Under the pieces are notes generated by a model, which was given only the letters and a program-made list of their open reading frames with translations, had not been told where the DNA came from and ran no database searches. The position numbers were made by a program, and so were the translations under genes. This document shows positions 2,127 through 37,939 of a stretch of DNA of 64,000 nt, in pieces. The stretch lies in assembly GCA_025602905.1 (NCBI GenBank), contig JAHLKI010000027.1, positions 186,001 to 250,000 of the forward strand. Direction: 5' to 3'. How positions within the stretch are numbered: the first letter of the stretch is position 1; every line of letters begins with the position of its first letter. Origin of the DNA: Phlyctochytrium arcticum (lineage: Eukaryota > Chytridiomycota > Chytridiomycetes > Chytridiales > Chytridiaceae).

Positions 2127-5100
2127 TCAAGACCCAAGCGCATCCTCCCCATCCACCCCAATAATCTGCACAAACACTTCCTCCAGGGTAGTCTCACCCA
2201 ATCCCCATTCCACAATCCCTGCTTCCGTTTTGCCCGCTTCCATTTGGTCAAACACGGCTCCGATACGGGTTGGGGAGCCGTCTGCTGAGGTTGCCGAGGG
2301 GGAGCGGGAGTGAGTTGTAGAAGGTGGCGCTAAGGATTTGGATTTTAAGATGGGTGTGGGAGTCGGGACGGGTCCGCCTGTTGTGGTCGCCAAAGTAGAT
2401 GTATTCTCCTCTTCTTCCTCTTCTTCTTCGACTTCACTATTATACGAACTAGCCGGTGGCGATCCCCCCTTGGGAACTTCATATGCCGCCTGTGTAGCAT
2501 AACTCTCCGACAACACCGCTGCAGGTCCAAGTATCCCCTCCACAAATGCCTTAGCCTTTGGTAAATCCTTTTCCTCATTCACGGAAAACACAATCCGGAA
2601 GGAATTGGCGTAAAGGGATTTCAAGTGGTGCGGGGTCCCGATACATCTCAACGTGCCTTGAGAGACGATCCCGATGCGCTGGCAGAGGACTTCGGCTTCT
2701 TCCATGGAGTGGGTGGTTAGCACGATTGTACGGTTTTTGCGGGCTTCGGTGATGATGTTCCAGATGAGACGGCGGACTTCGGGGTCTAGTCCAGTCTACA
2801 TTCAAAACACGTTAATATGGGTAAAATGACTAGCGAGAAGGGATATTTACCGTAGGTTCATCCAAAAACACAACTTTGGGGTGTCCAACCAACGCAATAG
2901 CAATACTCAATCGGCGTTTCTCACCCCCACTCAGCCCCTTTGTCCGTCGATTCTTGAAGGGTCCATTCAATGCCACAGTTTTCAAACTCTGTTCCACCAC
3001 CTCCGCCTCATCCGCTTTATCAATCCCTTTAAGACGAGCATAAAACAATAAATGCTCTTCACAGGTCAAGTCTTCCCATAGGACATCATGTTGGGGACAA
3101 ACTCCAACAACCCGCCATACACCCTCTCGCTCCGTATTAATATCGTACCCGTCAATGGAAGCTTGCCCGCCCGTGGACTCATAGAGGCCGGTCAGGATAC
3201 TGATGGTGGTAGATTTCCCCGCGCCGTTGGGTCCAAGCAGTCCAAACACCATATTGGATTCGGCAGCCATGGTTAGCGTCTTTAACGCGGTTTTACCCGT
3301 CGGGTACTGTTTTCGCAAGTTTTTGAGAATGAGTGGGTATTTCGGGTCCGTCAAGGAAATAGGTTTGACCCGGTCGCGCTCGGCGATGACGTCCGGGTCT
3401 TCGTGGAGGAGGTACTCGGGGCGAATAAAGTTGGGATCGTTGATGTCTGTGGGAGCCAACCCGCCTTTCCCGCCCTCGAGTTCGTCGTGGTTATTGACCT
3501 GCTGCTTGATAAGTTTAGAACGTCCATTAAAAAAGAAATATAAGAGAGAGATGTTTTACCTTGGCCATATGTTTACGCTGTTTGCGGGTTTTGAACCAAA
3601 GGACCGATTTTCGCCAGCCGTCTCCACCGAGCCAGAACGCCAATGCCATGAGCACAAACCACTCCCAGAGCATAAACATAAGAGCAGTATACACTTCATC
3701 CCCATTCCGAATCATGGAAACCGTGTAGGGCCGTTCTTCGGATCGGTACGAGGCCTGATTGACCACGGTCAGGATACGGAAAAAGGCAAAGGGCGGCCAG
3801 ATAAAGTAGGCTGAGGGAGCCTGACCCCGGGTAAACAACGTATCACCGGCCAACGAGACGAGGACACTGCAGAGCACAACGAGGAAGGTGACAACGAGGG
3901 CCGAGCGGGAATGATTGAATAAAGTCGCAAAAAAGAAGGCAACGGCGACTTGGAGGTGTCCCCACATGAAAAAAATAATGATGAGAACGCCCGCATTCGT
4001 CCGTACAAACATGTCAATTTTGGCAATCCGGCCCGCGACCAAAAACACAATGGCGGCCATGACATGCAACGAGTAGAAATGGATATAATGGGCCAACCAG
4101 TACGTCCACGTCTTGAGACCATTCATCCGCATCATGCCAAATATCCGGTCTTCCTTTTCTTTGACGAGGGTGACGACGAAAAAGGGGAGGAGGAAGGAAA
4201 TGGCAAAGGGGAAAAGGACCCGGCCCATGAATGACGAAAAGGGTAAGACGAATTTCGTGCTGCGGAGCCAGGGGAAGGCGCGGACGCTTTGGGTGATTTG
4301 GGAACTGGCGTGGGTGGCGGGATTGCTGGTTCGTAGTATGGCATTGCTTAATTGGGCTTGTTGGACGAGTTGGCGTTGGCCGGCGGGAGGAAACCCGGCT
4401 GCTTTATCCAGTCGCGTATCAGTCCCAATATGAAAGACGTATTCATAGGCTCGATTGGGGTGATCCAATTTGTTGAATGCGATCCCACCATAAGGTAAAC
4501 TTTTGGTGACTTCAGAAATACTGGCCAGGAATGCGGCCGTGTCAGCCGGCGACGGATCTTCTTCTCGGAGTACAGTCTTGTTCACCGACGACAATTTCTC
4601 CAACACGGCATTGAGCGCCTGTCCAATCGTGACATCCATGTTCCCCGTCGCAGACTCAAACCACGGGATTTGCTCTACACCGTTGATACCCTGTTGATTC
4701 AATGCGACATAGTAGCGGCGTTCAAATGTATCCAGCATGCCGTTGGCTACCGTGGAGGGTTTGAACAGGTCGCCGCTTAAGACTGTCGAGGCATTGGCGA
4801 GCGAGATGGGGATGACGCCTGTGGCGGGGCGGGTGCCGAGGAGTGAGGCATCTACGCCGTCAGCTACCGTGTAGTAGTACCAGGGTCGGAGCTGCCATTG
4901 GACAAAGATGCGGTAGAGATCGAATGCGTTGCTTGAGAGCCATCCGCCCGTGGGTTGGGGTGAGTATGTACTATAGGAGAAATGTCATCAGTGATGATTC
5001 GACCCTGTATAGGACGATATAACGTACCTGTCGAGACGAGACCAATTGGAAGCTGCAGGAATGGCAGGATCAAGCGCATAAATGTCCCCAGCCGTGAATG

Positions 5101-5914
5101 GGTAGTTGGCAGCCAGGTACTCGACACACGGTTTCTGGGACGTAAACCCAAACGCTCCCGACCCCATCTGCGAGACCAGATCCGGAGTTTTCAAAAAATT
5201 GACATGGGAAATCTGCGATAATGCTGCATTCGCAATCTTTCTTCCATTAATCGTATCCCCCGTTTTGGGGACTCCGGGATCATCAATATTGAAAATGGGC
5301 GAATTGACATTATCCAATGCGCGGATATTGGAGCAATAGACGACTTCTTTGATTTCGTTGTTTTTGTCGATGAGACCTTGTATGACGGCGCCGAGGACGG
5401 CCGAGATGATGACCATCATGGCGGGACAGCATCCGACGCAGCAAATGTTGGTGCACATTTGACGTTTTTGGTAGGCGAGGGTTTTTCGGCCTAGGGCGCG
5501 GACTTGGTGACTTTTGGGAGGAATGCGCTTTTCGGGGCGGGTATTTTCGGTGGTGGTGGTGGTGGGGGATTGGACGACGACCTCCAAGGGAGCCCCGGTA
5601 TTGGGGTCCTTCATTGTGTCCTTCATTGGGTGGGTGCTGCAATGGTGGTTCAGTCTCAATTGCTCATATATACTTTCAAGCGGGAAACGTTACCTTGCCG
5701 GTTGTTGGTTGTCGGAGCTGCTGCTGCTGCGAGAGGCGTTCGGCTGGCTGCCGTTTACTTGTTCAAATACCCCCAACTCCGCAAAGTCAATTCCTTCTGA
5801 CTCTTCAAGTAAAGTAAGCCCACTACAACAACACACAGCCCGTTCTGGATCTGCCAAGAAAGAAATACCTGCTTCTGGGATATCCGGGGCGGCGGCGTCG
5901 TGCTGCAGGGACAA
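2127..5914 (-). CDS. ABCA-type half-size ABC transporter
   Basis: Model of five exons: 5694-5914, 5028-5636, 3560-4970, 2851-3501 and 2127-2795, giving about 1186 aa; all four introns are 55-58 bp GT-AG and keep frame. The N-terminus is hydrophilic, followed by one membrane segment (MMVIISAVLGAVIQGL), a long extracytoplasmic loop rich in N and P, then about five more membrane segments, then one nucleotide-binding domain. That domain has Walker A GPNGAGKST, Q-loop CPQHDVLW, signature LSGGEKRRLS, Walker B VVFLDEPT, D-loop TGLDP and switch His in TTHSMEEAE. The TM-then-NBD order and large first loop fit subfamily A; members are typically lipid exporters or floppases. Only one TMD-NBD unit is present, so it should dimerise. 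A low-complexity Ser/Glu-rich tail (about 2290-2460) separates the NBD from a conserved-looking C-terminus. Start chosen at the first ATG of the exon that splices in frame. Substrate unknown. Confidence 0.9.
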
Positions 5915-6363
5915 GGGTTTCGGCAGAACGTCGTCTCCGGATCAGTTGGAGGAAGAGGGGGGGTTTATACACAAAAAGTAAACGGTACGTAAACTTGGAG
6001 AGGAAATAAAATACGATGGATGGGGGAGCGACCCGTACGGGTTTTCCTTTCAAATACGTTTTTCTGGGTTTTTACTCGAGTACAAAATTACTACGAATGT
6101 ACGATTGGCAGAGACTCCACGATTGCTGCCGACAGCCACGACTTTTCCCAATCCTACACTACTCGATGTGAGTCTGTGCCCATTTTTACTATATGCGCAG
6201 GTTCTTCAATCAGATCAGCGGCAGCCTTAGCGTAACCGTCGGCCAAAGCCATCGCCGCGATCTGCTTGTTTGAATTAGGGCTCATCGGGCGATTGGGCAG
6301 GTTTCAGATTGTCAAGGTATTTAACGGTATTATGCTTTTACAGTACAAACAAAAAGTACGAAA
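5915..6363. other. Intergenic region upstream of ABCA gene
   Basis: It separates the ABCA start codon from the stop codon of the next minus-strand gene (caleosin), so it should contain the ABCA promoter and caleosin 3' end. No clear TATA box or other motif was recognised. Confidence 0.4.
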
Positions 6364-27456: not shown

Positions 27457-27564
27457 TGAGAATGCCGTTTAGGGTTATTGTTGCTATAGTATCACGTCCG
27501 TAGATTAGCCGCTTACCTGTAGTAAGACTTGAACCATAGAAAATACATTTCCTTTGCTTTCTCA
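27457..27564 (+). repeat. 5' LTR (probable)
   Basis: It ends in CATTTCCTTTGCTTTCTCA directly before the primer-binding site. Bases 27517-27564 are identical to 32584-32631. The start at TGAGAATG is inferred from the TGAGAA/TTCTCA inverted ends and the CTTG flank, and could lie elsewhere. Confidence 0.6.
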
Positions 27565-27577
27565 TGGTAGCACCACC
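27565..27577 (+). other. Primer-binding site
   Basis: TGGTAGCACCACC follows the LTR end directly and equals the first 13 bases of the chromovirus site. Both elements therefore use the same primer, probably initiator tRNA-Met. Confidence 0.8.
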
Positions 27578-27736
27578 GTAAGCGTTACGGTCCGAACGCC
27601 CTCAGCAGACGCATCCAACTGTCCTCACCGACCCTCTCAAGAACGTCCTTAGCAGACGCACCCGGCCTCCAGACTCTTTGTTTACTTCCATACGCGATCT
27701 CCCTTACGCGTACGCGATCGTGCGATCTTGCACGCA

Positions 27737-28756
27737 ATGGACCCCGAGCATTACACCTATAATGCCTTTGCAACCCAATCAGCACAACCCTCTCCACAAC
27801 CGGTTGTATATCAAAACGTACCGCCTGCTCCTGGCCTTCCAGATGCAGACCTCGAACGCATTTCCCAGATTATCCAGTACCACGTCTCCAACTCTGTGAC
27901 CCCCATTCATGATTCTCTTCGCAACCTGGAACATCGACTTGTTCAGCTAGAAAGGCCCGCACCGCCCCCGACTTCAGCTACCGCCCAACCCCGTACCGAG
28001 TCCCAGCAGACTGGCCGTGGCCGATACTTCAGATATTATCCTTACACGGGTGGCCCCAATGAAGATCTTGATGGGTGGATGCTTGCCGTAGAGCTAGCTT
28101 TCGCGAAAGACGACACTGCAGAATCCAACAAAGTCAATGTGGTCATCGAAGCCCTCGAAGGATTAGCTAAAAGCTGGTTCGTCAGTAAATTGCACGCACG
28201 AAATGATTTTTTGACCACCCACCGCGTCAATACCCCTGCCGACTTACCTGTTTCCGCATTGACCACTGCCCGCTCTTTGGATGAACCTATATTAGTTGAT
28301 TGGCCGTCCTTCAAAAAAGCCATTCGCCAGCGGTTCACGCCTGTTAACCAAACGGAACGTTATTACCATGACCTTGTCCATCTCAAACATCAAAAAGGGC
28401 ATATCAGCGACTACATTCAGCGTTTTACCCTTCTGGATTCCTTGTTGCGAAATATTCCCCCTGCCGCTGAGAAAATTTACTGGTTCAAGGTTAACTTGCA
28501 TGAATCCATTCGTGCGATTGTGGAACGTGCACACCCACAAACATTGGCCGCTGCGATACGAGAAGCAGAGCTCGCTGAGATGGCCGACACGCCTCTCAAC
28601 CAGCGCGGTAATTCTCATTTGATTACCCCTACATCTGCCCGCCCCACTATACCTTTCCCAAGTCAAGTCCTTAATCCGCCTACCATCACCGGTAGTATTA
28701 CTCCATCCGACCCTTTTGGGACAGCCCCGATGGACCTAGACACTGTTGAGATGTGA
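27737..28756 (+). CDS. Retrotransposon Gag capsid protein
   Basis: An open frame of about 339 codons starts at MDPEHYTYNAF; the ATG is at 27737. The capsid core shows YYPYTGGPNEDLDGWMLAVE, ALEGLAKSWFVSKL, WPSFKKAIRQRFTP and HQKGHISDYIQRFTLLDSLL, typical of Ty3/gypsy Gag. The N-terminal part has a coiled coil (IHDSLRNLEHRLVQLE). The frame closes at 28756, and the zinc knuckle follows only after about 450 bases in another frame, so the original Gag has been split. It belongs to a family different from the chromovirus at 15.8-22.9 kb. Confidence 0.88.
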   Translation: MDPEHYTYNAFATQSAQPSPQPVVYQNVPPAPGLPDADLERISQIIQYHVSNSVTPIHDSLRNLEHRLVQLERPAPPPTSATAQPRTESQQTGRGRYFRYYPYTGGPNEDLDGWMLAVELAFAKDDTAESNKVNVVIEALEGLAKSWFVSKLHARNDFLTTHRVNTPADLPVSALTTARSLDEPILVDWPSFKKAIRQRFTPVNQTERYYHDLVHLKHQKGHISDYIQRFTLLDSLLRNIPPAAEKIYWFKVNLHESIRAIVERAHPQTLAAAIREAELAEMADTPLNQRGNSHLITPTSARPTIPFPSQVLNPPTITGSITPSDPFGTAPMDLDTVEM

Positions 28757-28767
28757 ACTGGAGCAAG

Positions 28768-28937
28768 TGTGGGAAGCTGGGAGTCTTAAGTCATGTAGCC
28801 AATTTTAGATAGATTATTAGTACACGTGAGCATGGGAACGCGTCTCTACGCGTACCGTTGGCGTCGTTAGATAGCAGACTGCTTGGCAGCTTAGAACTAC
28901 AACCGTTTTCTTCTCAATACATTTCTTCATCGCAACA
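28768..28937 (+). repeat. Possible solo LTR
   Basis: A non-coding block starting TGTGGGAAGC and ending CGCAACA separates gag from the zinc-knuckle frame. It has LTR-like ends (TGT...ACA) and promoter-like composition, but no second copy or clear target duplication was found. Confidence 0.25.
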
Positions 28938-28979
28938 ACCAACTAATCGCTCTGCGACCAGTATATGACTATCGTGACC

Positions 28980-29687
28980 AGGAGGTGCCATCAGAGACCT
29001 TGTTACGACAGACACTATCCGTTTCAACGCCCTTGCGAAGCAAGACAACCCTCAGCTTCCGTCCGATGATGTCTTGTTTGGTAACCCGTGGGTCGAAAGT
29101 GACAACAACGAGGAGGAATTATTCGCTTACCACCAACGAGGCCGCGCCCCCTTACGACCTCGAGGAAATTTCAACGAGACAAGTGGCTCGTCATCCTTTT
29201 CTGGCAATTGCTATTACTGCCGCAAATCTGGTCACCGTGTCTTTGAATGTCCTAAACGCAGAAGTGATGCACGCACTGGGAAGTTGCAAAGGTACACATC
29301 TCGAGCGGGAAATTTCAACCCGCGATTCCATTATTATCAAGGCGAACTGGAAGATGACGAGAAAGAAAATTTGAATTTTTTGAGTTTTAATGAACAGGAA
29401 GTAGCACAGTCAGCAGTACCCACGCTTTTGGCTGCGGGACACGTTTCCTTACCCGACCCGACAGCTATGGTGCACGACAAGAAGTCTCCCGACCTAACCA
29501 GCGACTCTCCTACGTGCCTTCAATTCGTGAAGGACTCGTCATCCTCTAATCCCCGTCTTACTTGGGTCGGGCTTGCAGCATTGCCATCTTCGCCTGATGT
29601 GACTTTTCCCGCTCAGTACTTCCACGACAATGGAGCCACACACTGTTTCATCTCGGAGTCTTTTGTGAAGGATCATAACATCCCCGT
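28980..29687 (+). pseudogene. Gag zinc knuckle and truncated aspartic protease
   Basis: The frame through 29074 has a CCHC knuckle, CYYCRKSGHRVFEC (C-x2-C-x4-H-x4-C), then an acidic linker, then FHDNGATHCFISESFV, the N-terminal active-site strand of a retroviral-type protease. The active site is D-N-G rather than the usual D-S/T-G. The protease breaks off about 20 residues later where the palindrome starts, so no flap or second half exists. Confidence 0.8.
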
Positions 29688-29738
29688 TGTCACAGTGCAT
29701 GCTCATAAACCAATGGTTTATGAGCATGCACTGTGACA
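29688..29738. repeat. 51-bp perfect palindrome at the protease break
   Basis: Left arm 29688-29711, spacer AAT, right arm 29715-29738. The arms are exact reverse complements over 24 bases. The centre contains AAACCAATGGTTTA, a string repeated at 29764-29777 and inverted at 30043-30056. It marks the exact junction between retrotransposon protease and AT-rich insert. Confidence 0.95.
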
Positions 29739-29764
29739 GGGGGCGGTTTACCTATTAAGGATTA

Positions 29765-30055
29765 AACCAATGGTTTACTATGAATAGGGCAATCAGGGTT
29801 GCCGCCTGTGAGAAACAGCACAAAACCCCTACAAAACCTGTCAAAATCACACCTTTTTCACCATACACATTACACAGGATAATAAGTATGGTTTACACAG
29901 GATTATCGGATTACACAGGATTACACAGGATTATCCTCACTGTTCAAAAACCGCTCTTAACCCACGCAAAACCTATCAAAATCAGCCATTTTCAAGCATG
30001 TCATTCTTTCCAGATTACACAGGATTATCCTTGCTATTGCAGTAAACCATTGGTT
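29765..30055. mobile_element. MITE-like 291-bp unit with 15-bp terminal inverted repeats
   Basis: AACCAATGGTTTACT at 29765-29779 is exactly inverted at 30041-30055. The interior is non-coding and contains several copies of the string GGATTACACA or close variants (about 29873-29935 and 30013-30030), a short minisatellite. No target duplication was seen directly at the ends. It could be a non-autonomous element or a structured end of the insert. Confidence 0.6.
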
Positions 30056-30194
30056 GAACGATTAAGGGCTTGTATCAGTGCCTCTAGACCACACCATTTT
30101 ATTCAAGCGACAACAACTTTTTACAACAATTTACTACAACAATCTGTTACAACAGTTTATTCTATCCTACTCCGTTTTGACACACGTTCCTCTC

Positions 30195-30500
30195 CACTTT
30201 AAACCTTGTTCCCCAGATCTGCCATGTTTCTGAAAGGTCTGGAAATCACTTTAAACTGTACCATTTTCAGGCATTTCCAATACCTTCAGTAAATGAGTAG
30301 AAAGCCCTATCGACCTTTGGGCACTTTAAATCCTTCTTCTCCCAGATTTCCAGTTTTACAATGCTATGGAAAATCGCTCAAAATTGTACCATTTTCAGAC
30401 ATTTAACACCATTCACCAAATTGAGTAGAAACCCCTATCGACATCTAAGCACTTTCAATCCTTGTTCTCTCACAACTGCCATATTGCAAAGTGCCCAAAT
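30195..30500. repeat. Direct repeats of about 127 bp (2.4 units)
   Basis: Units start CACTTTAAACC at 30195, CACTTTAAATCC at 30322 and CACTTTCAATCC at 30450. Within units, TGTACCATTTTCAG and GAGTAGAAA then CCTATCGAC recur at the same offsets. They are diverged, iteron-like, and sit between the MITE-like unit and the large hairpin. Confidence 0.85.
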
Positions 30501-30542
30501 AACTTACTAAAATACTACCTTTTCTGCCTTTTTTCGATATAC

Positions 30543-30624
30543 TTTGAAAAAGAGGAAAGTTCTCGCAATATTGGACTTACCTATAAGAGTATATCGATAT
30601 TGCGAGAATGTTCCTCTTTTTTGA
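30543..30624. repeat. Large imperfect hairpin upstream of the primase-helicase
   Basis: The left arm (30543-30574, containing AAGAGGAA and TTCTCGCAATAT) pairs with the right arm (30594-30624, containing ATATTGCGAGAA and TTCCTCTT). About 26 of 31 positions match across a spacer near 19 bases. Short CGATAT strings recur nearby. The position, about 200 bp before the gene for an origin-binding-type helicase, suits a replication origin. Confidence 0.85.
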
Positions 30625-30765
30625 ATTTGATATATTGATGATGCGATGATTTTGCCGCGACCGATATCCGCACTATCGCAAACCCTTTTTTTTCGATGTC
30701 TTTTTAGTCAAAAACATGACATTTTCGTCTATATTCATCGCCTTACATTTTGGAGGTATCACCCC

Positions 30766-30774
30766 TATTTAAAC
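30766..30774 (+). promoter_or_regulatory. TATA-like box of the primase-helicase gene
   Basis: CTATTTAAA lies about 55 bp upstream of the ATG at 30828. It is the only core-promoter-like string in the leader. Confidence 0.35.
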
Positions 30775-30827
30775 AGACGCATTCCACATTTATTTTAGAA
30801 ACTAAAGATAGGAAAATTATCTGTATA

Positions 30828-32567
30828 ATGTCAATTAATACATTCCGTCATGTTGTGTCCTGGAAACTTAACTGGGTCGGAAATAACAGTGTTAACAAAT
30901 CGGGAGCACAAGATTATATACTTCAACAACTTACACCTGAAACATATCCAGTTCTTTCATTAACTGAAAGGCGAGGCAGGTTATGGGCTGCTGTAACAAA
31001 AGAACAACTGTGTGGACTTTTGAGATGGAAAGCCGGTGTATATGAAATACTTGTTGCCGATAGAAAGCGCAAAATCTACTTTGATATTGATAAAACAAAT
31101 ATTGCTTTGCAGGATATCAAAAATGTGATCTTGCAAACATTTCCCAATGCTCGAATGCAGATTTCCGGACGAGATGGATCTTGGCGCATCATCCTTTCCA
31201 ACTATTATGCCGATAGCCTCCAAGCAATGGCACCAGTTGTTCTATTTGTTCAACAACATAGAGAACTCGGCTTTGACACAACTGTATATACAAAGAACCG
31301 GAATTTCAAATGTATCAATCAAGCAAAGCCCAATCAACCTGTTCAAGCATATATTGAAGGTGATCAAAACTTCTCTAAACATTTGATAATGCATGACTTT
31401 GACGATGATGCTGTGAATATTGCCGATATGGAATTCCCTCTCTTACCAACACCTGCTATCAAACAAAAGGATGGGACGCCTGTTGGCAAATTGGATCTTC
31501 TTGCTATACCACAACGAACTCTTTCTGTTCCCGATAACTTTGATTGGTTGACTGCTACTCCTCTCGATAAACTTGCAATGATCCCTTGTCCAAAACGCGG
31601 AAGTAAAGATACTTTACAACATGATGTTATGTGGCGAATTCTGGTATGGTGTTATCGCATTGGACTGACATTTGAAGACTTTTGGGCATGGGCGAGACAA
31701 CGCGAACCAGGTGTACTTTTCTACAAAAAGTATCAAAGCGCTTGACAACAATCAGAGAAATATCATGTCTCACCATCCTTTGTGGATAAACTGTTGATTC
31801 GATTTTACCCCAAGATTCAGGAATCAAAAGTTACTCAAAATTTGCGCCAGCATTTTCAATTGCCCGAGGAAGTTATTCTGCCAGGAATTAATGGAGGCTT
31901 CTATAACTGGAGGGATATTTCACCTCCTAAAATGTCACCTAGCGATAAAAAGGATTTTGGGAAGCAAAAACGGCTTGATGAAATGATGCCGCTGCTAGAG
32001 ACTCGGAACCCGCTTCCTAAAAAGTATACCATTCTCACAGGTCCTATGGGCTCTGGCAAAACCGAAGCCCTTATTAATTACTTGAAAATATATGGAAAAG
32101 ACAAACGGGTCTTATGGCTTACTCCTCGTATCACTTTATCTGCCAATACTCAAAAACGTCTTGAGCAAGTCGGTATTTACTTTGTTAATTATAAAACTAT
32201 TGACACAAAGCAAAAGAATGAAGGATATCTCGACACACAACAGTATGTTATTTGTTCCATCCAATCACTTCATTACTTGAATGCCCCTTTCGACATTGTA
32301 ATTGCTGACGAGAGTGAAAGAATTCTCAGTACTTTTGGTGGAGGCGCAACAACACATAGGAGTATTGGTATGAATTGGACAGCATTCGGAAATATTATCG
32401 ACAAGTCCAACAAAGTTATCGTTATGGATGCATTAACAACGAAAACCACATTGAATTTGGTAAAAGGATTTATTCGAAAATCATCCACGGCAATTAATGA
32501 ACATTTAGAAGTTCTCAATACTAGTAAACCACCACGCGAGGAACATGCGCAGCCACGGACCTTGTGA
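30828..32567 (+). pseudogene. Virus-type primase-helicase: AEP primase fused to origin-binding-protein-like SF2 helicase; one internal stop, 3' truncated
   Basis: One frame runs from the ATG at 30828 to 32567, interrupted only by TGA at 31743-31745. The N-terminal half is an archaeo-eukaryotic primase: metal motif KIYFDIDK, then DGSWRIILSNYY where the usual S-x-H has Arg for His, then GFDTTVYTKNRNFKCINQAK, the hD motif and the VY-NRN signature of NCLDV-like primases. After a linker (FEDFWAWARQ), the second half is a helicase with Walker A GPMGSGKTEAL, motif Ia VLWLTPRITLSANTQKRL, then SIQSLHYL and a DEAD-like IVIADESERIL, and VIVMDALTT. This order matches herpesvirus origin-binding-protein (UL9)-type helicases found fused to primases in large DNA viruses. 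The frame ends 46 codons after the DALTT block, so the second RecA domain is missing. AT-rich composition and the absence of introns set it apart from neighbouring genes. I infer viral or viral-plasmid origin. Confidence 0.85.
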
Positions 32568-32631
32568 GTGGAGACCAGGATAACTGTAGTAAGACTTGAA
32601 CCATAGAAAATACATTTCCTTTGCTTTCTCA
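32565..32631 (+). repeat. Right-hand LTR copy, shortened
   Basis: It begins TGAG and ends TTTCTCA. The last 48 bases (32584-32631) are identical to the end of the left LTR at 27564, and the first 19 do not match it. CTTG lies on both sides (32561-32564 and 32632-32635), so it could also be read as a small solo LTR. Confidence 0.65.
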
Positions 32632-32888
32632 CTTGTCTTTGTTGGTTGTCTGGTTCGATCCATTTTATTGTATTGAATAGTACAGTACGTAATGAACTTT
32701 TCGACTGCTGCTTTTCAAGTCTCAAACGCGTCAAGAGATCAATCACCCTTGGCCAGAAATGTGCAAAATCATCCACGCGAACATGAAGCAAACAAGCACA
32801 CCAAATTCTATTCCTTTCCAAACAAAAAAGAAAACGGCAGCAAAATGTTGGGGGAGGGCAGACGAAGGACGCCAACACGACAGTTCTA

Positions 32889-33790
32889 GATCCCTAGCTG
32901 GTCTTTCACCATGCGACGGATTCCCTCCAACGCTTCGACGGTTGCATTCGCGGCGGGGTCGTCGGAGTGGGTGTGGTTCTGGGGAGTGGGGAGGGTGTGG
33001 TGTCGTCCGACTAGTCAAAGTAAAAATGTTGATCACGCATCCTAGGAAAGTGTGGGAAAGGAACATTCTACCTCTCAGGCCTGTCACGTCGTTGATGGGT
33101 CTGCTGGGGTGTAGTACCGGCGGCTTCCCTTGGGGTCCGCCCAGCGGAGCATAACACCAGGTAATCCGTCAACCCGAGCAGCCTTGATTTCGTCCATCAC
33201 CTCTCGGGCCCCCTTTAAGCTCTCGAATTGTGCGAAGCCCACTCGTCAGTCGCCGGATCGACGAGGATCTTTACGGAGAGGACGTGGTATGGGGTGAGCA
33301 GACCGTGGAAGGAGGAATCAGTGAGGGACGCCGGGAGGTTGGAAAAATAGATATTATTGTTTGGCGGGGGATTGTGTGGTTGGGCGGAAGGGAAGTTTGG
33401 ATGAGGAACGTGGTGGTGGTGTGGTGGCATCGGATTCGTGGACTGACGAGATGTCTGGCCAACAGGACCCTATATACTAGGGAACACGCGCGGGTATAGG
33501 CCGCCGTGTGAAAGCGAACGCGGTGACAGTGCGTAAATTCCAGCTTAGGACCTGCTTAGAAATGAGAGCTCACTTCGTTCGCAATCAATCAGTGACGATC
33601 CATACACTCATTAAAAAAACCGTGAAAACAAACCTGATCCTTTACTCCAACCCGTGCGAAACTTGCGGCGTATCCATAACCACGGCCGGCGAGCCGCCTT
33701 TGGATACGGCGGCATACCCATGTTGTGCGATCAATGAAAGGATTTGGAGAGGTTAGCGAGAGAAAGGGGAGAAAGGGGGGAATGCGAATA
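32889..33790 (-). pseudogene. Decayed tandem copy B of the RBMS-like gene (3' half)
   Basis: Pieces equivalent to three exons of the intact gene lie in the same order and orientation: last exon (about 32889-33005), RRM2 exon (about 33065-33470, with PHHHHVPHPNFPSAQPHNP and NIYFSNLPASLTDSS still readable) and RRM1 second half (about 33580-33745). The intron sequence before RRM1 (CATTAAAAAAACCGTGA) is nearly unchanged. Frames are broken and the N-terminal exon is absent. Confidence 0.85.
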
Positions 33791-34049: not shown

Positions 34050-35036
34050 TCAGATACCGAGCTGGTCCTTGACCAACTGCCTGATACCCTCTAATTCTGC
34101 ATCAGTGGCGCTCCTGGCCTTGGGTGATGGTTTGGGCGTCGGTCGGGGGAGTGGGGAGGGTGTGGTGGCGTGAGCTGTTCGGCTAGTCAAAGTCAGAATT
34201 TTAATCGTAATACCAAGAAAGGGTAGGGAAAATCTTACCTCTCTGGTCGGTCTCGACGTCGATACCCTTGTTGGGTTAAGTACCTGCGCCCCCCCCCCCT
34301 TCAGGTCTGCCCAACGGCACCTACACGGCCCGCCTTGATCCCGTCCATTACATCCTTTGCCCCCTCTGAAGCGGGCAAAGCCCACTCGTCGCGAATAGTC
34401 CGTCGCTGGGTCTGTCAAAATCTTTACCGAAAGAACATGGTACGGCGACAGGAGACTATGGAGGGACGGGACGAGTCGGTGAGGCTCGCCGACAAATTGG
34501 AAAAGTAAATGTTGTTGTTGGGTTGTTGCTGGGGGTGCGGGGGAGGAGATGTATATTGCTGGGACTGGACATGGTCGTGGTGGGGTGGCATTGGGTGAGT
34601 GGTGTGGCGGGATACATTCCCGTTCACGACTGGTCCTTATAACACAAGTCAGGCATGATCTAGATATCATTGGGATGACCGTGTGTTATATTGATGATGT
34701 ATGAATTGGGTGGGAGTATTCTGTTGCGCCTATAACCAGAATAGATTGTTTGAGAGTCCAATCCTAATAACAAAATCATATAAAGTCAGTCATTGGTATC
34801 ATGTACGGTTGGATATAAGACACGAACCTGATCCTCGTCAAAATCCTGTTGGGCACAGTACTCGTTTGGTAGAGGTAGGAGTCTGTAAGTGAGGCCGAGA
34901 AGTTGCCGAGATAGTGCAGCATCTCGTCTAATATGGTTTGGGTCAAGGTTTCGAATGTAGGTGTTGGACGGGTATCGGCCTCCTCCGCAGAATATCCAGT
35001 GTAGAGTATGGCGGCATACTCATGTTGTGCGATCAA
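34050..35036 (-). pseudogene. Decayed tandem copy C of the RBMS-like gene (3' half)
   Basis: The last exon survives best (TPSPLPRPTPKPSP then DAELEGIRQLVKDQLGI, ending at 34050). The RRM2 exon (about 34250-34630) keeps SPYHVLSVKILTDPAT and RRVGFARF but has frame changes and a C10 run at 34290. Only traces of the RRM1 exon remain (34780-35036). This copy lies between copy B and the intact gene, so the locus holds three tandem versions. Confidence 0.85.
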
Positions 35037-35665: not shown

Positions 35666-37939
35666 CTAAATACCCAGTTGGTCTTTCACCAGTTGTCGGA
35701 TGCCTTCCAGCTCAGCATCCGTGGCCGACCTCGCCTCCGGGGACGGCGTGGGAGTGGGACGTGGGAGCGGGGACGGGGTGGTAGGGTTTGGGGTGCGACT
35801 AAATCACGTAAATATTAATCGCGTATCCTAACAAACGGTGAAGGAGGATGTTTCTTACCTGTCTGCGCGATCCCGCCGCCTATACGCCTGCTGGGTTGAA
35901 TACCTGCGCCCCCCCTTCGGGTCGGCCCATCTGCACATCACCCCCGGCAACCCATCTATACGGCCGGCCTTCACTCCCTCCATGACTTCCTTTGCCCCCT
36001 CGGGACTTTCAAAGCGGGCGAACCCGACCCGGCGAGAGTATCCCGTTGCGGGATCCACCAAAATTTTCACGGACAGGACATGGTACGGCGCGAGTAGGCC
36101 GTGCAGTGATGAATCCGTCAAAGACGCTGGAAGGTTGGAAAAGTAGATGTTATTGTTAGGCGGGGGGTTGTGTGGTTGGGGGGAAGGGAAGTTGTGATGA
36201 GGGACGTGGTGGTGGTGTGGTGGCATGGGGTTGGTAGAATGCCGGGATGCGTTCAACACCGGTCCCTATACAAAAAGTCAATTACGATCCATACACTCAT
36301 TAAAAAAACCGTGATCACAAACCTGATCTTTTACTCCAACCCGTGCGAAACTTGCGGCATAACCATATCCTCGACCAATTCCTTCAATGGCCTGCCGTGC
36401 GCAGAATTCGGACTGGTACATAACGAAACCATAACCCCGGCACAATCCCGTCGTTCGGTCAATGATAGATTTAGAAGAAACAATGGGGCCGAACCTGATT
36501 ATGAGAGTTAGTAAATGAAGGAAGGGATATGAGGAGGGTGAGACTTACGGTCTGCAAAGATTGAAAAGCATCTCGTCACTCATTGTAGGAGGGAGGTTGC
36601 GAATGTACACGTTAGTATTGCTGGGGTATCTGGCTCCACCACGAGCCGACGACGGAGGGGGGACAGGATGATGCACGGCAGGAACGCCAGCGGCGGGCAA
36701 CATGGGGAACGTGGGCATACCCATGTTGACGGGCACGGGGACAAACGACATCGGGTTGGGGGATGGGACGGGGAAGGAGGTTGTAGATGATGCGTCGCTT
36801 GGTCGGCGATAAGGGTTTTGTTGGTGGTGGGAGGGTGGCTCGGGGGACGAAGAGTGAATGGAGGGTAGAGAGGACAGAGACGTAGCTGCTGTAGCCGATG
36901 CCGAGGATACTGGAGGCATGTGGGAAGTAGTAGCAATGGGAGCCGTCGGTGTTGGTTGGTAATAATACCCACCGTCAGGCGTAGGCACAACGGTCATCAT
37001 CATCACACCCGTTGGAGCGGCGGTCGAGACTGCCAACTGAGGTGCGGAGCCATCTACCAGGGATTCAGCCGAAGACGTTGCTGAGGAGGGGGTAGATGTG
37101 GGTTGGGCGACGTACTCCATGGGATATTCGTAGAAATACCCGGGCATGTTAGGGACCTGGGTGTAGTACGCATATTGCTGTTGGGGAGGGATGCCGATGC
37201 CGGGTGCAGGTACTCCATTCTGAGGTGCAGGGGCCGCAATACTAGAACTGGTACTACTACTTCCCTCAGCGGTTGATGACGAAGAGAGAGAAGGGTCATA
37301 ATATAAAGGAGCCATCTGTTGGGGGACAACGGGATAGTACGGGTTATGCATGACTGGCTGCTGACCGTATTGGTTCATCATTTGCTGCTGTTGAAGATGT
37401 CCCGATTGTTGTTGCAGGAGATGGGCAGCTGGGTATGGTTGCTGCGGCTGGTAGTGCATCGGATGCTGCTGGGGATACTGGCCGTGTCCGTAGTGATAGT
37501 ATTGTTGTTGATGATGTTGGTAGTGATTGTTGTGCCTGCCAACATTCTTTCGACCACCGCCGCCGGTTCCAGCACCATTGTTGCCATGAGGGTGCATGGA
37601 AGAGTTATGGTGGGGACGGGTATGGGGAGGTTGTTGGGAAGTATGAAAGGTAGACGAGGACGACGAAGATGGAGATACGGCAGTGGCGGTTGCATCAACA
37701 GTCTGCTGGAGCTGTTCATCCTGATGATGAGCTTTGTTGCTGTCAGACATGGTGGTCGTCGGCTTGCCCGCGCCAGAGGCTTTAGAAGGAGAAGTAGAAC
37801 GTTGTTGCTGCTGCATTCGATGGGGAGTGGTGGGGGTCGGAGTGGTAGAGGGAGACGTAGGAGTGGGGATACCCGTTGCCAGCGTTTTCACGGCTGCTTG
37901 GGTCGATTTGCTCGACGCTGCTGATGTCGTGGCGGGCAT
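35666..37939 (-). CDS. RBMS/MSSP-like RNA-binding protein with two RRMs
   Basis: Four exons: 36549-37939, 36323-36494, 35859-36265 and 35666-35798, about 700 aa, with all junctions in phase. The first about 440 residues are low complexity (Pro, Ser, Thr, Gln, His, with HHQQQYYHYGHGQYPQQ-like runs). RRM1 (about 441-521) has RNP2 VYIRNLPP and RNP1 LCRGYGFVMY. RRM2 (about 560-640) has RNP2 IYFSNLPASL and RNP1 RRVGFARF, split from RRM1 by a His-rich linker. The short spacing and LCRP-FGPIVSSKSIIDRTTG sequence resemble RBMS1-3 and their fungal relatives, which bind AU-rich or single-stranded nucleic acid and regulate mRNA. The tail ends ELEGIRQLVKDQLGI, a possible amphipathic helix. Prion-like composition suggests condensate behaviour. 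Two decayed copies lie directly downstream. Confidence 0.92.

Follow-up and report, generated by a model that had tools for sequence, protein, structure and literature searches.

The genome assembly of the chytrid fungus Phlyctochytrium arcticum comprises 31.48 Mb in 91 contigs (written here as C with a number). A 64,000-nucleotide (nt) stretch of it (C27:186001-250000, hereafter referred to as the window; positions given without a contig are window positions) contains the remains of a Ty3-type long terminal repeat (LTR) retrotransposon, interrupted by an AT-rich segment (29688-32533) that starts with a perfect palindrome and carries a gene for a primase fused to a helicase (Table 1). The original prediction, made from the letters alone, offered two accounts of this arrangement: either a virus-like replicon had integrated into the retrotransposon, with loss of its polymerase gene (pol), or the two had been mobilized together. 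Here we describe the edges and genes of the insert, its relatives elsewhere in the genome and the unusual termini of the element family to which it belongs.

Table 1 Features of the window at and around the insert (aa, amino acids; AEP, archaeo-eukaryotic primase).
Feature	Position	Strand	Basis or remark
5′ LTR, 108 bp, TG...CA	27457..27564	+	Matches both LTR places of the C3 sister copy
Leader and Ty3-type gag frame	27565..28756	+	Ty3_capsid, Retrotrans_gag
267-bp dispersed repeat interrupting gag	28744..29010	.	18 other places among the matches listed (16 matching over 200 bp or more); not in the C3 copy
CCHC knuckle and protease start, frame broken at 29687	28978..29687	+	zf-CCHC (just under cut-off), RVP_2; C3 stays in frame beyond
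Terminal palindrome of the insert, arm 25, centre 1 nt	29688..29738	.	Left edge set by comparison with the C3 sister
Subterminal repeats of the insert	29739..30200	.	29688-30200 is 96-99% identical on C29, C84, C86 and C45
Site of the mostly lost 113-aa gene carried by four siblings	30200..30294	.	93 bases where C45 has 432; within the aligned C45 stretch, the gene spans 471-809
Tandem repeats, period 128	30195..30482	.	
Stem-loop, 25-bp stem and 25-nt loop, upstream of the replication gene; candidate origin	30547..30621	.	Five copies compared
AEP primase part (P0001, 305 aa), ending at an in-frame TGA, deviating from motif II	30828..31745	+	Motifs, fold
UL9-like (Herpes_ori_bp) helicase, N-terminal part, truncated	31746..32533	+	Pfam; similarity to C54 stops at 32533
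3′ tail of a 5′-truncated retroposon-like repeat, 50 bp	32534..32583	+	Eight other copies
Last ~48 bp of the 3′ LTR	32584..32631	+	32581-32631 is 98% identical to 27514-27564

The left flank carries the LTR, gag, zinc knuckle and protease start that had been described there. Ty3_capsid (1.7e-8), Retrotrans_gag (3.4e-6) and RVP_2 (2.1e-4) scored above their Pfam cut-offs, and zf-CCHC (4.7e-4) lay just under its own. A complete Ty3 element has two LTRs, gag and pol; here, pol is absent and the 3′ LTR is truncated. A sister copy of the retrotransposon lies on the minus strand of C3 (1009433 to 994759), retains both LTRs and is about 97% identical to the window copy across three blocks. This sister passes the position corresponding to 29687 in the same frame, with a sequence unlike that of the window, and reaches its own stop 42 codons further on. 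Since its sequence continues uninterrupted across this point, 29687|29688 marks the edge of an insertion into the protease frame; the alignment of an LTR copy lacking the insert, which had been suggested as a check, has located this edge. From its sequence, we read the C3 copy as an empty site rather than as an intact element; its length of 14.7 kb is long for Ty3, and it probably contains further insertions. The 267-bp repeat interrupting gag in the window is possibly a solo LTR of another family.

At this edge the insert opens with the predicted 51-bp perfect palindrome, the 25-nt arm of which exceeds the 9 nt of the second-longest perfect palindrome in the window and the 7-9 nt of the longest in 20 mononucleotide shuffles. 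The predicted AT-richness is likewise present, the GC content being 0.385 over 29688-32533 and 0.499 and 0.522 in the flanks. The palindrome had been read as the point at which a single layout switches from one part to the other; its recurrence indicates that it is instead the terminal repeat of the insert itself. A search pattern consisting of the outer palindrome arms with 14-40 free bases between them found 40 places in the genome, and a looser pattern found 88, whereas the reversed-pattern control found none in either case. Outside the central 4 nt, 503 of 505 positions in the free inner arms of the 40 palindromes are self-complementary, and these inner arms comprise 17 distinct sequences; thus, the sequence varies while the symmetry is kept. 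The perfect terminal palindromes span 41-64 bp.

Behind the subterminal repeats, the copies on C29, C84, C86 and C45 carry a gene encoding a 113-aa protein, most of which the window copy has lost. This protein had no family above cut-off, its structural model (predicted local distance difference test (pLDDT) score of 79.4) had no fold match at E 0.001, and a search of limited sensitivity returned four database relatives, each from P. arcticum. The direct repeats described as 127 bp long are present with a period of 128, and the inverted repeats and large hairpin are also present, the latter being the stem-loop of Table 1. In five copies of this stem-loop (two of them nearly alike), 96.8% of the cells are paired, as compared with at most 57.6% when slid, and eight base pairs are altered on both sides. 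Four of five covariation measures beat nearly all shuffles (reached by 0, 6, 0 and 0 of 500).

The replication gene is a single frame (30828-32533) broken by a TGA codon at 31743-31745. The predicted combination of an AEP primase and an origin-binding helicase holds for the fold of the former and for the match of the latter to Herpes_ori_bp (2.1e-14); the frame is interrupted and the helicase truncated. The primase part, P0001, matched 0 Pfam families. Its AlphaFold2 (AF2) model (pLDDT 88.7, built on 31 sequences) matches the AEP primases monkeypox virus (MPXV) E5 (3.0e-8), human PrimPol (4.9e-8) and vaccinia virus (VACV) D5 (4.9e-8), as well as a herpes simplex virus 1 (HSV-1) helicase-primase chain (1.8e-4), with low structural scores (best template modelling (TM) score 0.42/0.55, ~15% identity). 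The DxD, SxH and later Asp columns, which we take to be the three catalytic AEP motifs, are conserved in alignments A1 and A2, and the window copy deviates at a motif II residue that 90% or more of the aligned relatives retain. Given the motif II change, the stop and the cut at 32533, we take the gene to be dead. An open 941-aa frame of the same type (hereafter AEP–UL9) on C54 reaches the contig end. The C54 protein has 54 relatives at E 0.001 or better, the named ones being from Phlyctochytrium, Borealophlyctis, Spizellomyces, Geranomyces, Powellomyces, Rhizophlyctis and Thoreauomyces, all of which are chytrids. Single-protein and alignment scans of viral contigs found no relative of the AEP–UL9 protein, PADLOC returned weak helicase matches only, and tblastn against phages gave one weak match.

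On the right, the segment had been thought to end in the last 48 bases of the LTR. An LTR remnant of about 48 of the 108 bp is indeed present, separated from the insert by an unrelated 50-bp repeat. Eight other copies of this repeat that we read share its end point and differ in their flanks, and its 5′ ends vary among loci L051 and L058 and the window, as in 5′-truncated retroposons. A later deletion, at the junction now occupied by this retroposon-like tail, best accounts for the loss of pol. We infer that the deletion followed the insertion, in which case a single loss would have removed the right part of the insert, pol and most of the 3′ LTR together. As insertion and deletion account for the right edge, joint mobilization is not required. 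The window copy is damaged in other respects as well: most of the 113-aa terminal gene is gone, one in-frame stop is present and the helicase is shortened. When open reading frames (ORFs) of 110 aa or longer from 10 relative loci were compared with the window by tblastn, only the replication gene and terminal-region frames matched.

Relatives of the insert lie in unrelated flanks on C29, C86, C45/C84, C54, C58 and C10. Inverted pairs of palindromes delimit elements of 17.9 kb on C58, 22.8 kb on C10, 1.7 kb on C25 and 25.1 kb on C4. Exact 5-bp duplications flank three of the five pairs examined (GAGCC on C58, GAGAG on C25 and CAGAC on C10), and the C4 flanks agree at 4 of 5 bases. Terminal inverted repeats (TIRs) are present in C4, C10 and C58, and the relatives thus show both the TIRs and the duplications, within the 5-7 bp range, of Polinton-like viruses. 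The C4 element (C4:900741-925880), with TIRs of 1.45 kb at 96.7% identity, encodes D5_N, rve (2.1e-13), Chromo (1.1e-13), HNH_3 and Pox_A32 (PF04665, 6.9e-10), all above cut-off, and therefore has the integrase and the A32-type packaging ATPase of a Polinton-like virus. It further contains an adenovirus-fibre match and two adjacent capsid-like frames of 181 and 255 aa (Capsid_N E 0.016, under cut-off). We presumed by eye that the C34 and C4 replicases are of the TVpol type, and this label is not used as evidence. A scan of viral contigs found no relative of the C4 ATPase. Both C4 TIRs have a second palindrome, of 80 bp, between the 113-aa gene and the replicase (C4:901536 and 925041; L062:1237-1316 and L064:6641-6720).

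C10 has 4.8-kb inverted repeats that are 99.4% identical, each bearing a replication frame of 734 aa or its equivalent; the 734-aa frame matches Prim-Pol (6.6e-20), with D5_N at its cut-off and DUF5906 under cut-off. The interior of C10 (1700-24600; L059-L061) contains host-like frames, one Ras-like and another weakly GNAT-like among them, which are possible cargo. C58 encodes D5_N, DUF5906, DUF3223 and Chromo above cut-off, and rve under cut-off. No PolB family was found among the 30 ORFs scanned (10 each from C58, C10 and C4, part of all their ORFs).

The 113-aa gene has 76 genome-wide matches, the ATPase 49, the capsid-like piece (the first C4 frame) 48 and the integrase piece 55, many of the last being short or weak. 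The capsid-like piece lies within 6 kb of an ATPase match in 31 of 48 cases (expected 1.7%), and the 113-aa gene lies at most 1 kb from a listed palindrome in 23 of 73 (expected 0.43%). Of 16 AEP–UL9 loci, 5 have a capsid-like or ATPase match no more than 15 kb away (expected 5%), and three of these five are fragments lying 3 bp beyond palindromes on C6 and C15. On C45, AEP–UL9 (3505-6126), rve (12531), the ATPase (14911), the capsid-like piece (16826) and the 113-aa gene (19274) follow one another over 16 kb. The AEP–UL9 gene type thus occurs beside the virus gene set, and we make no claim that the parent of the window copy itself had a capsid.

Collectively, these observations make it very probable that 29688-32533 is the left end of an element of the Polinton-like-virus type, either a virus or a satellite sharing its ends, which was inserted into the Ty3-like protease frame and later truncated. 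The first of the two original accounts, a virus-like replicon integrated where pol is now missing, fits the empty site on C3 and the palindrome-ended relatives. In such an element, the rve-chromodomain integrase would join the outer TG...CA palindrome edges to the target, and the AEP–helicase protein would replicate the element, perhaps starting at the nearby stem-loop.

Several points weigh against this interpretation. The window copy has no right end, target duplication, capsid gene or integrase gene. The C58 element lies inside a tandem array, which weakens its duplication, and the pair C8:317129/330579 was rejected as an element, as its second palindrome stands alone with no duplication. 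The capsid and tyrosine-recombinase labels are weak, the latter having been given by eye and having found no support in Pfam, NCBIfam or PHROGs, and there is no capsid-like match inside C58 or C10. AEP fragments end 3 bp outside the palindrome at C6:103003-103544, C6:127688-128229 and C15:729112-729653, where the palindrome is consequently not the outer edge; the C6 pair is mirror-imaged, the inverted repeat extending past the palindrome. Several of the 40 palindromes have common flanks (for example, C41/C63, C45/C84 and C64/C88/C89) and are therefore not independent insertions. Finally, the fifth covariation measure of the stem-loop, further pair types, was reached by 223 of 500 shuffles.

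The order of features in the window (LTR, gag, replicon, LTR) is what a single travelling unit would show, with the primase–helicase in place of pol, as in the second original account. We consider such a hybrid very improbable, given that the C3 sister lacks the insert, that the remaining 3′ LTR is incomplete and set off by a foreign repeat, and that the gene is broken. In the genome search for other insert copies with LTR flanks, which had been proposed as a check, the lists of matches (lower bounds), compared by eye, contain no second place with gag and insert together; relatives of the insert have unrelated flanks. Still less credible is the formation of the palindrome at the insertion site from gag-pol by fold-back repair. 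The left arm does adjoin the protease frame and remains open in it, but the same palindrome occurs with other flanks on C29, C45/C84 and C86, and C3 diverges from the left arm after its first bases. Misassembly of the left junction, which we rejected as the main explanation, seems unlikely because the same palindrome-to-interior boundary is found on other contigs.

A variant of the preferred reading, a truncated insertion of the Polinton-like-virus type, is harder to set aside: the window copy may descend from a satellite or transposon that had these same palindromic ends but no capsid genes, and that borrowed the integrase and capsid of Polinton-like viruses. The C25 element, which measures 1.7 kb and has two palindromes as well as a 5-bp duplication, is consistent with this variant, and because C58 and C10 contain no capsid-like match, the window's parent may likewise have been capsid-less. 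The proximity of AEP–UL9 loci to capsid-like or ATPase matches argues the other way, albeit with three of the five loci being fragments outside palindromes, as does the clustering of the genes on C45, as far as the match positions show. On balance, we regard the satellite as a real possibility, though a somewhat doubtful one.

The termini themselves point to a mode of replication. Of 46 palindromes in the fetched loci, 32 have one side recognized as interior. Five arm groups were testable, each having a non-empty loop and two or more insertions that differ in their outer flanks, and in all five the central loop, read from outside to inside, occurs in both orientations. The loops are CTT on C11 and C54 and AAG on C49 (group 1); T at C30:303708 and A at both ends of C58 (group 2); A on C27, C29 and C45/C84 and T on C86 (group 3); T at both ends of C10 and A on C20 (group 4); and A at C30:335559 and T on C44, the arms differing by one base (group 5). 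With the groups taken as independent, random substitution would produce the complement in 1/3 of cases per single-base loop, or ~0.012 for the four such groups, and, by our own arithmetic, the exact reverse complement of the three-base loop in 1 of 63.

This pattern could arise if the terminal palindromes fold into hairpins through which a linear genome without a protein-primed polymerase copies its ends, inverting the central loop. If the elements are linear, the lack of PolB in the 30 ORFs scanned means that another end-copying route is needed. Judged from the loops, the chances that the family copies its ends in this manner, turning the loop over, seem to us roughly even. The alternative is that the palindromes are integrase ends only, and that the loops invert by host recombination at inverted repeats. 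The outer edges read TG...CA, either side of a palindrome presents the same end, and palindromes with no recognized interior occur, all of which speak for this alternative. It is less easily squared with the five groups in which the loop is inverted between loci that share arms and interior but differ in outer flanks, and to our knowledge integrase ends need no such long perfect symmetry. We hold it to be a serious contender, a little short of an even chance. Copying through hairpins also has observations to contend with. Three ends with nearly the same arms bear other loops (C34, C8:317129 and C30:333728), 14 of the 46 palindromes have no interior recognized by the pattern used, and none of these 14 has an exact flanking duplication of more than 1 bp. 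At least 2 of the 14 do have element sequence on one side (C27:308263 and, as judged by eye, C73).

Parvoviruses, replicating through hairpin ends, also invert their loops. Poxvirus termini are described as flip-flop sequences, with two inverted-complementary loop forms that result from hairpin-end replication (PMC8956199), phage N15 is a hairpin-telomere replicon (PMC12624138), and phaeoviruses are reported to have a telomere resolvase and a telRL-like palindrome that is internal to the provirus (PMC13236599). The elements described here share long palindromes with these replicons and may work like them, by analogy drawn from the palindromes and loop inversion in sequence; unlike in the phaeovirus provirus, the palindromes are at the integrated ends. 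The predicted fold of P0001 resembles poxvirus D5/E5, PrimPol and herpesvirus-type AEP primases, from which it differs in its low structural scores and in its fusion to a UL9-like helicase.

Polinton-like viruses are described as integrated elements of tens of kilobases with TIRs, 5-7 bp duplications, rve or tyrosine-recombinase integration, and primase–helicase, ATPase and capsid genes, all of which recall the relatives found here; one is integrated in the chytrid Spizellomyces punctatus, with TIRs and 5-7 bp duplications (PMC7805220). S. punctatus also has relatives of a 549-aa protein encoded by C4. The present elements differ in their perfect terminal palindromes with loops in both orientations, in the fusion of AEP to a UL9-like helicase in some of them, and in the 4.8-kb TIRs of C10 bearing the replication gene; capsid genes are missing altogether from the window copy. 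Mavericks/Polintons likewise have TIRs and an rve integrase with a chromodomain, and differ in having duplications of 6 bp as described (PMC12747079), rather than 5 bp, and perhaps in PolB, which matched none of the 30 ORFs scanned here. With Ty3/Gypsy elements the locus shares the LTR, gag, CCHC knuckle and protease start; the copy in the window has lost pol and is only the landing site.

No Polinton-like virus with hairpin or palindromic ends was found in the titles and abstract openings of the literature examined, subscription papers and preprints being outside its scope. The words 'palindrom' and 'hairpin' are absent from the main texts of PMC7805220, PMC10120064 and PMC12220804, and 'hairpin' occurs once, about a giant virus, in the text available for PMC12747079. 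The work reported in PMC10120064 left out Fungi. A scan of viral contigs with the TGTGACAG form of the palindrome found no match, the TGTCACAG form being outside that scan.

The composite in the window is ordinary nested-insertion wreckage, and this dead fragment matters only as a clue to the element family, the termini of which are not ordinary. They may mark a chytrid lineage of Polinton-like viruses with hairpin telomeres (flip/flop palindromes), an AEP-primase/UL9-type or D5-type replicase and no protein-primed polymerase, the palindromes being reused as integrase ends; we see the arguments for and against such a lineage as evenly matched. If it exists, Polinton-like viruses would gain a pox-like means of copying linear ends, and a link would be drawn from these small viruses to poxviruses and phaeoviruses, with their hairpin termini. 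The many integrated flip-flop copies in one small fungal genome make the question of how such viruses, lacking a protein-primed polymerase, duplicate the ends of a linear genome testable in existing long reads.

Among the palindromes with no recognized interior, those at C8:330579, C40:203480, C23:433192, C7:1690, C41:59470, C63:32936, C2:6665, C14:63449, C1:451264 and C29:40270 have no flanking duplication of more than 1 bp. Common flanks are seen for C41 and C63, and for C40, C23 and C7. Another such palindrome, C58:50292, borders the tandem array containing the C58 element, whose left end is 280 bp away. Downstream of the LTR remnant in the window, one stretch recurs in diverged form at 32886-33453, 34052-34613 and 35666-36249, one copy after another, with the first being 63% and 69% identical to the other two.

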